The position numbers were made by a program, and so were the translations under genes. The notes under the pieces were generated by a model. That model worked only from the letters and a program-made list of their open reading frames with translations. It was not told the origin of the DNA and made no database searches. Shown piece after piece: positions 50,549-54,341 of a DNA stretch of 54,454 bases. Source of the stretch: Saprospirales bacterium (GTDB lineage: Bacteria > Bacteroidota > Bacteroidia > Chitinophagales > Saprospiraceae); contig PAAY01000077.1 in the NCBI GenBank assembly GCA_002698985.1, positions 1-54,454 of the forward strand, in the 5' to 3' direction. Position 1 is the stretch's first letter. Each line of letters begins with the position of its first letter.

Positions 50549-51598
50549 TTAGTCTTTCATGAACGGGTAATCGGGTTGAACGTAATTGTCGGTGTACAAC
50601 TCTTCAGGAGCCGGATATGGAGATTCATCTGCAAATTTTACGGCTTCTTTAATTTCCTCTTTGATGGCCGCCTGGATGTTTTCGAGTTCATCCTGGCTGA
50701 TCTCCCCGCTGTCGAGCATTACCTTCTCCACCATTTTGATGGGGTCTTTTTCCATGTATGATTTCAATTCCTCACGGGTGCGGTAATGCCCGGGGTCAGA
50801 AACCGAGTGGCCTTTGTAGCGGTAGGTTTTGATCTCGAGGAAGTAAGGTCCTTTTCCGCTTCTGATGTGCTCTGCGGCTTTTTTTACAGCTTCGTAAACG
50901 GATTCCGGCCGCATGCCATCCACCTGCTCGCTGGGCATGTCATAAGCCAGTCCCAACTTGTAAATGTCCTGGACGTTGCTGGTGCGGGTCACGGAAGTAC
51001 CCATTGCATACTGGTTGTTTTCACAAATGTAGAGCACAGGCAGTTTCCAGGTCATGGCCATGTTGAAGGCCTCGTGCAGGGCTCCCTGGCGGGCGGCCCC
51101 GTCGCCGAACATGGTCACGCAAAGGTTATTGGTGCCTTTGTATTTTTCAGCGAAGGCGATGCCGGTTCCGATGGGGATTTGTGCTCCAACGATGCCGTTG
51201 CCTCCGAAATACTTGTGTTCTTTGGAGAAGAAGTGCATGGAGCCGCCCTTGCCTTTGTTGACGCCGGTAGCTCTGCCGAAAAGCTCTGCCATGCATTCTT
51301 TGGTGGTGCATCCTCTTCCGATGGCCGTGCCGTGTTGGCGGTAACCTGTTATGATCCCGTCACCGGGAATCAAGGCTGATTCGATGCCGGCAGCAACGGC
51401 CTCTTGTCCGATGTACACGTGCAGGAATCCACGGATTTTTTGCTGGTTGTAAGCGAGCAGCGCTGCTTCTTCGAAACGGCGGATACGCAGCATAAGCTCA
51501 TACCAGCTCAGGTATTGCTCTTTGGAATAGGCGAGTTTGCTCTTGCTGTTCTTTTTGGTGGAGGTGCCAGACTTCTTCTTCTTTGATTCAGCTACCAT
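50549..51598 (-). CDS. pdhA: pyruvate dehydrogenase E1 component, alpha subunit
   Basis: 349 residues. Thiamine-diphosphate decarboxylase subunit that passes the acetyl group to E2 lipoate. RRFEEAALLAYNQQKIRGFLHVYIGQEA, YRQHGTAIGRG, the TPP motif GDGAARQGALHEAFNMA...ENNQ and YRYKGHSVSDPGHYRTREE are diagnostic. The Lys/Ser-rich first 20 residues are an extension common in Bacteroidota. The beta subunit and E2 are not in the window. A minus-strand TAAATTTG (51606-51613) sits only seven bases before the ATG and might drive a nearly leaderless message. Confidence 0.96.
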   Translation of the reverse strand: MVAESKKKKSGTSTKKNSKSKLAYSKEQYLSWYELMLRIRRFEEAALLAYNQQKIRGFLHVYIGQEAVAAGIESALIPGDGIITGYRQHGTAIGRGCTTKECMAELFGRATGVNKGKGGSMHFFSKEHKYFGGNGIVGAQIPIGTGIAFAEKYKGTNNLCVTMFGDGAARQGALHEAFNMAMTWKLPVLYICENNQYAMGTSVTRTSNVQDIYKLGLAYDMPSEQVDGMRPESVYEAVKKAAEHIRSGKGPYFLEIKTYRYKGHSVSDPGHYRTREELKSYMEKDPIKMVEKVMLDSGEISQDELENIQAAIKEEIKEAVKFADESPYPAPEELYTDNYVQPDYPFMKD

Positions 51599-51803: not shown

Positions 51804-54341
51804 TTACCTGCCGGAACGGTCAATGAAATTCGACCCCGCCTGCTGGGTGCTGAACATGAAAATGTCCTGGATATTCACATGCGGAGGCCGGGTGGCGATG
51901 TAATAGATAGCATCGGCCACATCGGAGGCTTTCAAAGGCTGGAAGTTTTCATATACGGCAGCGGCTTTTTCCACATCCCAGTCAAAGCGCACCCTTGCAA
52001 ATTCGGTTTCTTCCACATGGCCCGGTGAAACCTGGCTGACCCGGACATTGTGTTTGAACAGGTCCAGCCGCATGGATTTTGTCAGTGCATCCACCGCAAA
52101 TTTGGTGGCACAATAGACGTTGCCACCCGGATATACCTCTTTGCCGGCGCTGCTGGCTACATTGATGATGTGGCCACTTTTTCTGGCTACCATTTGCGGA
52201 GCTATGGCCCGCGTCATGTAAAGCAAACCCTTGATGTTGGTGTCGATCATTGTGTCCCAGTCTTCGGGTTTGCCCTCATGGATGGGGGCAAGTCCCCGGG
52301 AAAGGCCTGCATTGTTGATGAGGATGTCCACCTGACTCCATTCTTCCGGCAGATTGCCGATGGCCTCTTTCACGGCATCGAGGTCCCTGACGTCGAAATG
52401 AAGCAGGAGCACGTCGCTGTTGAATTCTTTTTGGTACCGTTCTTTTTGTTGCTCCAGTCTGTCCAGCCGGCGGCCCGTTATAATGACCCTGAATCCATTC
52501 TTCGCAAACAGGTCGGCGGTGGCTCTTCCAATTCCGGCCGTTGCGCCGGTGATGAGTACTGTTTTGGGTCCTTCAATCATTGATTTGGTAGTTTCAGTTT
52601 TCGGTTTTTGCGTTTCGTCCTGTGCCTTCTCTTCTGAAGGAACGGCTTTGTTTCCGGTTGTTGCATTGCCCTCATGGCTTATTTGCTGGGATGGCTTTTT
52701 GCTTATGCCCAGCTTGAACACCCTGTCGTTGTGCGGGGTACGAAGCTCTGGATTGACCGCTATTGCACGTTGGTAAAAGCGGTATGCCAATTCTCCTTTG
52801 CCCATTTTGTGGTAAAGCACCGCTATTTCGTACCAGGCAAAGCGGTGTTGAGGTTTCAACTCTTTGGTGACCATGAAATGGCTGATAGCCTGGGCGGGAT
52901 CGTTCAGGTGTTCGGCATACAAGGTGCCGAGGCAGTAATGGGCGTCGGCGTTGTTGTGGTCCAGTTGCACGGTCTTTTCAAGGTGATACAGCGCCTCATC
53001 TTTTTTGCCTTCGCTGTGGAATAAATACAAGATCCCAAGCCGGTAGTGAGCCCCCGGAAAATCGCCGTCGATGTCCAGAACCTGATGGTAGGCGGCAATG
53101 GCTTTTTCGTAGTCTTTCTGGTGCTCCGCAAGCTCTCCCCGCAGGAAAAGGGCTTCTATAAACCGGGGATGCTCAGCCAAAATATCATCCAATTCGTTGA
53201 CGGCGGCGTCGAGGTTTTTCTCATACCTCGCCAGGGCGTAGGCATAGTAGTAGCGCAATGTCGGGTTAGCCGGTGCAGCGTCAACCGCTCCTTTCAGAAA
53301 ACCCAAAGCCTGGCTGGTTTTTCCAGCGTTGAAAAGGCCGACAGCCACCTCCATGACTTCTTCCGGTGCTGGCGGATCCTGCGGTTTTGGAGCCCTCTTT
53401 CTAAGTTTCGGCTTTGCCTGTGTGAGCGGTTCGTCGCTTTCATCTTCGCCGAACAATTCATCCAGCAGCGCATCTTCCTCCTCTTCGGAAAAATAGTCCT
53501 CCTCATCCTCGCCATCGTCCAAAACGATCATCAATTCTTCCTCCTCCTCAGCATTCAGTTCGTCAATGAGGCGTTCGGTCATCTCCGAAGGGTCTTCTTC
53601 CGCAGTCTTGGGCTGCACAACCGGTTCTTTGTTGGCTGATTCCAGCTCGGTGTTCTCGGCAAGGAGATCCTTGGAGGATTTGGTGATGATTTCAATCAGG
53701 GTGGCATTGTCCTTTACCTCTTCTTCCTTTTTTAAAATTCTCATCAGCTTGTCGTGTCCCTGCGGATCGTTGAGCCTGCTGAAGAAGTACTCGTAGGTGT
53801 TCTGAAGAAACGCTTCCAAACGGATGCAGGGCAGCTCATTGAAGAAGTTGAGGATTGAACTGATGTTGGCCGAAATATCCTTGACAACTTCGACTTCCCG
53901 TTCCAATTCCCCGTCGGGTTCACTGAGGTGGATGAGTTTTTCCCTGAGGTCAAGGTAGCGCGTGTGCCAGTATTTCATGTAAACCAGCATCTGGTTCACC
54001 TGCCCGATCTGCGTAGGGATTTCCCTTTTTGTGCCGTCTTTGTCTCGTGCTATGCCAGGTGCCAGCACTGCAATGAGCCGGTTTTTCTCCTGAAGATCTT
54101 TGAGCACGGGCAGACACCTGTAAAGGCAAGCCGTTTTCCGAAGGAAGTTGTCACTCAGCAATACGACGACCTGCCCCCGGGTTTCGGGAATGTCACGGTA
54201 AAAAGCCCCTTCTTCGAAATTATCGGAAAACTGGTACTGGTGGAGCTGATAGCCCGCTTTGCTGAGGTCGGACGTAACCTCTTGCCCGAGCCTTTGGTTC
54301 TCGGGACAGAAGACAATAGCATGATTCTTCTGCACGGGCAT
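51804..54341 (-). CDS. TIR-like / TPR / short-chain dehydrogenase fusion protein
   Basis: 845 residues in one unbroken frame. Residues about 5-130 look TIR-like: HAIVFCPENQRLGQEVTSDLSKAGY, then VVVLLSDNFLRKTACLYRCLPVL, where the usual WCxxE reads ACLYR, so the NADase glutamate is replaced by R75. A helical segment (130-235) and a very acidic linker (240-305) follow. Six or so TPR units fill about 325-545. Residues 588-845 are a complete classical SDR: TGATAGIG (598-605), NNAG (676-679), S730, Y743 and K747 (YCATK). M588 could begin a free 258-residue SDR. It shares no operon with pdhA by clear evidence (205-base gap). Function unknown. Confidence 0.85.
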   Translation of the reverse strand: MPVQKNHAIVFCPENQRLGQEVTSDLSKAGYQLHQYQFSDNFEEGAFYRDIPETRGQVVVLLSDNFLRKTACLYRCLPVLKDLQEKNRLIAVLAPGIARDKDGTKREIPTQIGQVNQMLVYMKYWHTRYLDLREKLIHLSEPDGELEREVEVVKDISANISSILNFFNELPCIRLEAFLQNTYEYFFSRLNDPQGHDKLMRILKKEEEVKDNATLIEIITKSSKDLLAENTELESANKEPVVQPKTAEEDPSEMTERLIDELNAEEEEELMIVLDDGEDEEDYFSEEEEDALLDELFGEDESDEPLTQAKPKLRKRAPKPQDPPAPEEVMEVAVGLFNAGKTSQALGFLKGAVDAAPANPTLRYYYAYALARYEKNLDAAVNELDDILAEHPRFIEALFLRGELAEHQKDYEKAIAAYHQVLDIDGDFPGAHYRLGILYLFHSEGKKDEALYHLEKTVQLDHNNADAHYCLGTLYAEHLNDPAQAISHFMVTKELKPQHRFAWYEIAVLYHKMGKGELAYRFYQRAIAVNPELRTPHNDRVFKLGISKKPSQQISHEGNATTGNKAVPSEEKAQDETQKPKTETTKSMIEGPKTVLITGATAGIGRATADLFAKNGFRVIITGRRLDRLEQQKERYQKEFNSDVLLLHFDVRDLDAVKEAIGNLPEEWSQVDILINNAGLSRGLAPIHEGKPEDWDTMIDTNIKGLLYMTRAIAPQMVARKSGHIINVASSAGKEVYPGGNVYCATKFAVDALTKSMRLDLFKHNVRVSQVSPGHVEETEFARVRFDWDVEKAAAVYENFQPLKASDVADAIYYIATRPPHVNIQDIFMFSTQQAGSNFIDRSGR

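Follow-up and report, generated by a model that had tools for sequence, protein, structure and literature searches.

A TIR–TPR–SDR fusion gene in Saprospiraceae

In the bacterial family Saprospiraceae, a TIR domain and a TPR array are joined in one reading frame to a classical short-chain dehydrogenase (SDR). We studied the fusion in a Saprospirales bacterium, where it lies at the end of a contig of 54,454 nucleotides (PAAY01000077.1), the whole of which is called the window here. The architecture is conserved in the family, the TIR domains fall on one side of a single branch of their tree, the glutamate of the NADase motif is mostly lost, the SDR active-site residues are intact, and the gene shares its locus with stand-alone SDRs. 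Bacterial TIR domains have been studied mainly as NAD-cutting immune parts. We lean towards the reading that a TIR–TPR part was captured once by an SDR of the NADP(H) type, mostly lost its glutamate and may now assemble or position the enzyme.

The gene is a frame of 845 codons plus a stop on the minus strand, running from an ATG at 54341 down to 51804 with no internal stops (Table 1). Its start is 113 bases from the contig end, yet the gene is complete. A first-pass annotation, made from the sequence letters and their open reading frames, had described a single 845-residue frame without giving its strand; the frame proved intact, and the strand is added here. A genome of the same genus (G061) has an identical frame layout, with a protein 77% identical to that of the window. 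Pfam TPR families match within residues 338–534 of the window protein (best E 5.2e-17), and the acidic linker and TPR array of the earlier description both hold, the array comprising six TPR units by Pfam and structure model. In the full-length model, the TIR domain, the six TPR helix pairs and the SDR are well folded and strung like beads (pTM 0.44), and the acidic linker is mostly of low confidence (pLDDT below 50 at residues 221–252, 265–284 and 298–320). With disordered linkers and a pTM of this size, no fixed packing between the domains is predicted. The second connector differs among close pairs of relatives, residues 551–588 being 19–33% identical in three of six pairs and 59–76% in the other three. 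As a whole, the layout bears out the initial picture, in which a TIR/TPR part tethers a redox enzyme linked to NAD(P).

Table 1. Features of the fusion gene and its downstream neighbour in the window
Feature	Position in the window	Strand	Basis or remark
Whole TIR–linker–TPR–linker–SDR gene	51804..54341	-	845 aa + stop; same-genus relative
TIR domain with long C-terminal helices, residues 1–170	53832..54341	-	alignment, profile, AlphaFold2, Foldseek
Residues 171–325: helices to ~228, then acidic linker	53367..53831	-	full-length structure model
Six TPR helix pairs and capping helix, residues 326–542	52716..53366	-	Pfam, structure model
Disordered connector, residues 547–589	52575..52703	-	pLDDT<50
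Classical SDR, YdfG-like, residues 590–845	51807..52574	-	Pfam, NCBIfam, PDB match
Pyruvate dehydrogenase E1 alpha (pdhA), downstream neighbour	50549..51598	-	identical order in same-genus genome

Distribution of the fusion

We surveyed 150 Saprospiraceae genomes, including that of the window, taking SDR matches over 240 bits as orthologs. An SDR ortholog was found in 128 of them, the TIR of the fused gene in 87, and both in 83. One uninterrupted TIR–SDR frame is present in 76 of these 83 (76 of all 150), with a TPR match in 75; the frame in G005 has none. One further genome (G059) has a stop inside the fused frame, and four (G022, G110, G123 and G132) carry TIR and SDR pieces at contig ends. 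The SDR occurs without the TIR in 45 genomes, neither part in 18, and the TIR without the SDR in 4, three of these at contig ends and the other being G102. Two genomes of one genus (G048 and G148) have a natural split version, in which TIR–TPR and SDR are adjacent genes on one strand (L135 1408–3920 and L136 1045–3509). G102 encodes a TIR–TPR protein of the fused-gene clade lacking an SDR domain (L137 1197–3725, 843 aa). The TIR-bearing genomes are the larger ones, with a median of 5.4 Mb in 83 genomes as against 4.1 Mb in the 45 that have the SDR only (p 6e-6, in a comparison that ignores kinship).

A second, named set came from scanning a single genome of each species, which gave 123 relatives, 80 of them kept; it overlaps the set of 150. 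Their titles include Saprospiraceae, Saprospirales, Lewinellaceae, Phaeodactylibacter, Lewinella and Flavilitoribacter, and the remainder are loose (Chitinophagales, Bacteroidetes/Bacteroidota/Bacteroidia, or just bacterium). Twelve of the 80 loci are cut by a contig end, and in 67 of the other 68 a single frame contains all three parts; in the last, L223, they are spread over two frames. The architecture search proposed at the outset shows that homologues are not always encoded separately, so that this ground named for refuting the fusion falls away. Misassembly or chance joining is ruled out by the 76 of 83 family genomes with one uninterrupted frame. Outside the family, the TIR profile matched 4 of 395 genomes at class level, 5 of 395 at phylum level (G378 being counted in both) and 2 of 149 at order level, and no SDR lay in the TIR's frame among the non-family matches read further, a group that leaves out G598 and G911.

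A shared locus

Immediately upstream, and on the same strand, there is a redoxin-domain gene at 60 of 76 fused loci, 55 of 67 uncut named loci and 40 of the 45 stand-alone loci of the family (a set leaving out L089, which is fused, and L078, which is contig-cut), and at none of 28 class outgroup loci. The misses have too little upstream sequence at 2 fused, 4 named and 0 stand-alone loci, and enough of it at 14, 8 and 5, respectively. Two examples of this gene were scanned with Pfam and matched Redoxin/AhpC-TSA. Since fused and stand-alone SDRs follow the same redoxin gene, they occupy one locus, at which the TIR–TPR part was probably added. The short gaps suggest that redoxin and SDR gene belong to one operon.

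Besides redoxin, the neighbours of the window gene are pdhA, a TPR gene and ribH. The order in the same-genus genome is redoxin, TIR–TPR–SDR gene, pdhA. In the window's own genome, a redoxin 87% identical to the same-genus one is found on another contig (G000:C88:206-1570, minus strand), 205 bases from its end. Given this gene order and the position of the redoxin, contig C88 probably abuts the right end of the window, beyond 54454.

Fold of the TIR domain and loss of the NADase glutamate

One sequence alone does not settle the identity of the N-terminal domain, since the first 258 residues of the window protein match Pfam TIR_2 only at E 0.022 (15.7 bits), below the cut-off of 28 bits, and residues 1–202 match no Pfam family at E<=0.01. 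We therefore turn to the family. TIR_2 matches 39 of 67 fused members at E<=0.01, and a profile built from an alignment of 67 fused relatives finds its best PDB matches by sequence in MyD88 TIR chains (E 7e-6). AlphaFold2 modelled residues 1–202 with a pLDDT of 93.8 and a pTM of 0.89. The best Foldseek match of this model is the plant L6 TIR (E 8e-5, rmsd 8.3), with moderate TM-scores (query 0.48, target 0.56). Ranks 3–5 are proteins that we take not to be TIRs, and further down TIRs are interspersed with other alpha/beta folds; taken by itself, the structural match is therefore of moderate strength. Structure prediction, the check suggested for the annotated TIR fold, returned that fold, and profile, AlphaFold2 and Foldseek all speak for it; the extent first given, residues 1–130, did not stand, as the module covers about 170 residues including extra helices.

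The box 2 region reads LSDNFLRKTAC, and the box 3 region contains Y121 and W125. Parts of the core motif (N15, S63, D64 and N65) are conserved in the fused family, and W125 is present in 67 of 67 members. In six close pairs of relatives, the TIR is 78–88% identical in four and 71–72% in two, and residues 206–327 of the linker are 24–59% identical. The TIR dN/dS is 0.04–0.06 in the three pairs where dS was computable, at a high dS of 1.5–2.3. Together with the invariant W125, these ratios indicate that the TIR is not decaying.

In the 67-member alignment, position 75, the glutamate of WCxxE, is Arg in the window protein, as had been pointed out from the single sequence. Glu75 is absent from 66 of the 67 fused members, the exception being L065, and is found in 4 of the 80 named relatives, a set overlapping the 67; all 20 of the related TIRs from other architectures, some of them near copies of each other, have it. 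The loss is not absolute, Glu75 having been kept or regained in a few members. Those bearing it, fused or contig-cut, are L065, L148/L205, L149/L230, L223 and L227; three of these (L148, L149 and L227) cluster in the TIR tree. The Trp position before Cys (position 71) is variable in the fused family. In SARM1 the corresponding Trp binds the ligand, and SARM1 is the sole animal TIR with known NADase activity, according to PMC7075850. A lost Glu75 is no proof of lost ligand binding.

An intact, YdfG-like SDR

Pfam adh_short covers residues 593–785 of the window protein (E 2.4e-58). The motifs T598GATAGIG605 and N676NAG679 and the tetrad N702, S730, Y743 and K747 are all in place, which confirms the full SDR, with TGxxxGIG, NNAG, Ser, Tyr and Lys, described in the first-pass annotation. 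Catalytic S, K and N are found in 77 of 77 fused SDR rows and Y in 76 of 77, and active-site residues are as conserved as in the stand-alone copies. An RR follows SDR strand 2, a motif that we take to be typical of NADP use. Within the family, fused and stand-alone copies share a complete C-terminal SGR, which occurs in none of 28 outgroup rows.

The nearest solved structure is PDB 3asu (E 3.6e-66, 241 of 256 residues covered), presumably E. coli YdfG. The best NCBIfam model is likewise YdfG (NF007829), at 259.4 bits; this is below its cut-off of 411, so that analogy is the only guide to the substrate. In vitro, the E. coli enzyme YdfG uses NADPH to reduce malonate semialdehyde, according to PMC8113886. 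The SDR of the window would use NADP, and on the YdfG analogy its substrate may be a 3-hydroxy acid or a semialdehyde. The SDR part alone matches 156 of 198 class genomes at E<=1e-60, two of the 156 being from the window's family. Among the matches listed elsewhere in the class, the frames are 237–493 aa long and mostly stand-alone, two long ones measuring 493 aa (G321) and 362 aa (G171). The window SDR represents a class-wide housekeeping gene within its family.

Evolutionary history of the fusion

In a TIR tree that includes 19 relatives of other architectures, leaves out the partial L317 and drew a program warning of long branches, a single branch (SH-aLRT 99) separates the 78 TIRs belonging to the fused gene, its split version and G102 from the relatives. 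In the free SDR trees, fused and stand-alone rows are intermingled; the two trees take 20 and 15 changes and have many weak branches. The 20-change tree, of 253 columns, counted L038 (stop-split) and L078 and L289 (contig-cut) as stand-alone, rows that the 15-change tree leaves out; it is poorly resolved, and its well-supported branches alone force at least five changes. Holding fused and split rows in one clade gave an SDR tree 13 lnL better (p-AU 0.606), which makes one fusion the simplest reading. We infer a single fusion of TIR–TPR to SDR, with later losses being possible. Many independent fusions, or many losses, are not put forward as a firm claim, because the held-together tree is better and is not rejected. 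In the SDR and the TIR trees alike, the split pair is placed with fused members around it, and it may be a fission.

TIR–TPR frames with the glutamate and without an SDR occur in other families (L308, L309 and L310), and this form is a plausible donor of the fused module. Five TIR relatives of other architectures were scanned by Pfam; two are TIR alone, and the other three carry SLFN_AlbA_2, EAD11, and LRR-Roc-COR with EAD11. Relatives of this kind include L131, L134, L139, L321 and L322, with a dynamin-like GTPase part recognized by eye in L321/L322.

Proposed explanation and alternatives

We propose that a TIR–TPR module from a Glu-bearing TIR group would have been fused to the N-terminus of a conserved SDR in Saprospiraceae, at the existing SDR locus, after which the NADase glutamate would mostly have been lost. 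The TIR would be a weak self- or hetero-association domain, a scaffold as in MyD88, and the TPRs would bind a partner. Flexible acidic linkers would allow clustering, placement or switching of the intact SDR while leaving its chemistry unblocked. As the glutamate is mostly gone, the TIR is under selection, and TPRs and flexible linkers are present, a scaffold role is the best-supported one; with the NAD-cutting residue mostly lost, the TIR may gather proteins instead. We more tentatively consider a domesticated TIR signalosome, in which signal-dependent TIR–TIR assembly with a TPR-bound partner, and perhaps with the neighbouring redoxin as well, would cluster and switch the housekeeping NADPH dehydrogenase. 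If true, this doubtful elaboration would give bacteria an equivalent of MyD88-type assembly, the output being an oxidoreductase.

The main rival makes the TIR a ligand sensor that regulates the SDR by binding NADPH or a nucleotide derived from NAD, which it would leave uncut. Conservation of N15, S63, D64 and N65 agrees with this, and the attached SDR is expected to use the same cofactor class, but the variable position 71, the mostly lost Glu75 and the absence of predicted domain coupling in the full-length model make it unlikely. The missing acid at position 75, in the window and most members, argues against the TIR being an active NADase that relies on some other catalytic acid; a few members do keep Glu75, and acidic residues are common near box 3 (e.g. 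113, 117, 127 and 131), yet we consider this reading very improbable. If the N-terminal part were instead a passive tether or an inert passenger, it would be no surprise that 45 of 128 SDR-bearing family genomes lack any such TIR. A passenger is quite improbable, however, given W125 in every one of the 67 members and a TIR that is 71–88% identical in close pairs whose linker has diverged to 24–59%.

An anti-phage or conflict protein, whose SDR would be an effector draining NADPH, is suggested by the related TIRs joined to SLFN_AlbA_2, EAD11 or LRR-Roc-COR, which we take to be typical conflict-system partners. We consider it very improbable. PADLOC models gave no match for the TIR part of the window protein, and over the whole protein they returned only PD-T4-6 (15.5 bits, E 0.0013, residues 569–640) and a TPR model (9.3 bits, E 0.11). 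A profile search found one copy of the TIR in the window's genome, the gene lies mostly at the same locus as stand-alone SDR orthologs, and its active site is conserved to the same degree as theirs; the uninterrupted frame is present in 76 of the 150 family genomes surveyed, unlike patchy defence genes. The defence-like module first suggested for this gene is thus unsupported, its neighbours being metabolic and its SDR class-wide; the sensing role named beside it may apply.

Comparison with known systems

Full-text literature searches, whose scope takes in few subscription papers, yielded no description of a TIR–SDR fusion, in agreement with the earlier remark that no system with the order TIR, TPR, SDR had been described; in PMC7159879, a paper that does contain the terms concerned, dehydrogenase appears only within the reference list. 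Proteins with a TIR and C-terminal TPRs (group 6 of PMC7075850, and L308–L310) have the same TIR-then-TPR order and lack the SDR. Group 6 is described in PMC7075850 as having no conserved boxes and as mainly actinobacterial. Bacterial TIR_2 proteins of other architectures share the profile, the CM region after box 2 and the aromatic-W box 3 region with the fused family; they differ in having Glu75 in 20 of 20 cases and no SDR in frame. On the enzyme side, the SDRs YdfG and YMR226C (PDB 3asu and 3rku) resemble the SDR part of the window protein, and are chains of about 250–290 aa without TIR or TPR.

Natural fused, split and stand-alone versions, with a few Glu-bearing members, provide built-in controls. 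The large set is apparently vertically inherited, and places a TIR on a core metabolic enzyme with the cutting residue mostly lost and kept in relatives. Whether bacterial TIRs act as scaffolds outside immunity, as in animals, thereby becomes a directly testable question. The MyD88-type scaffold TIRs, the best PDB matches of the TIR family, signal by higher-order assembly, according to PMC8635717. The window TIR is joined to TPRs and an enzyme, whereas that of MyD88 is joined to a death domain.
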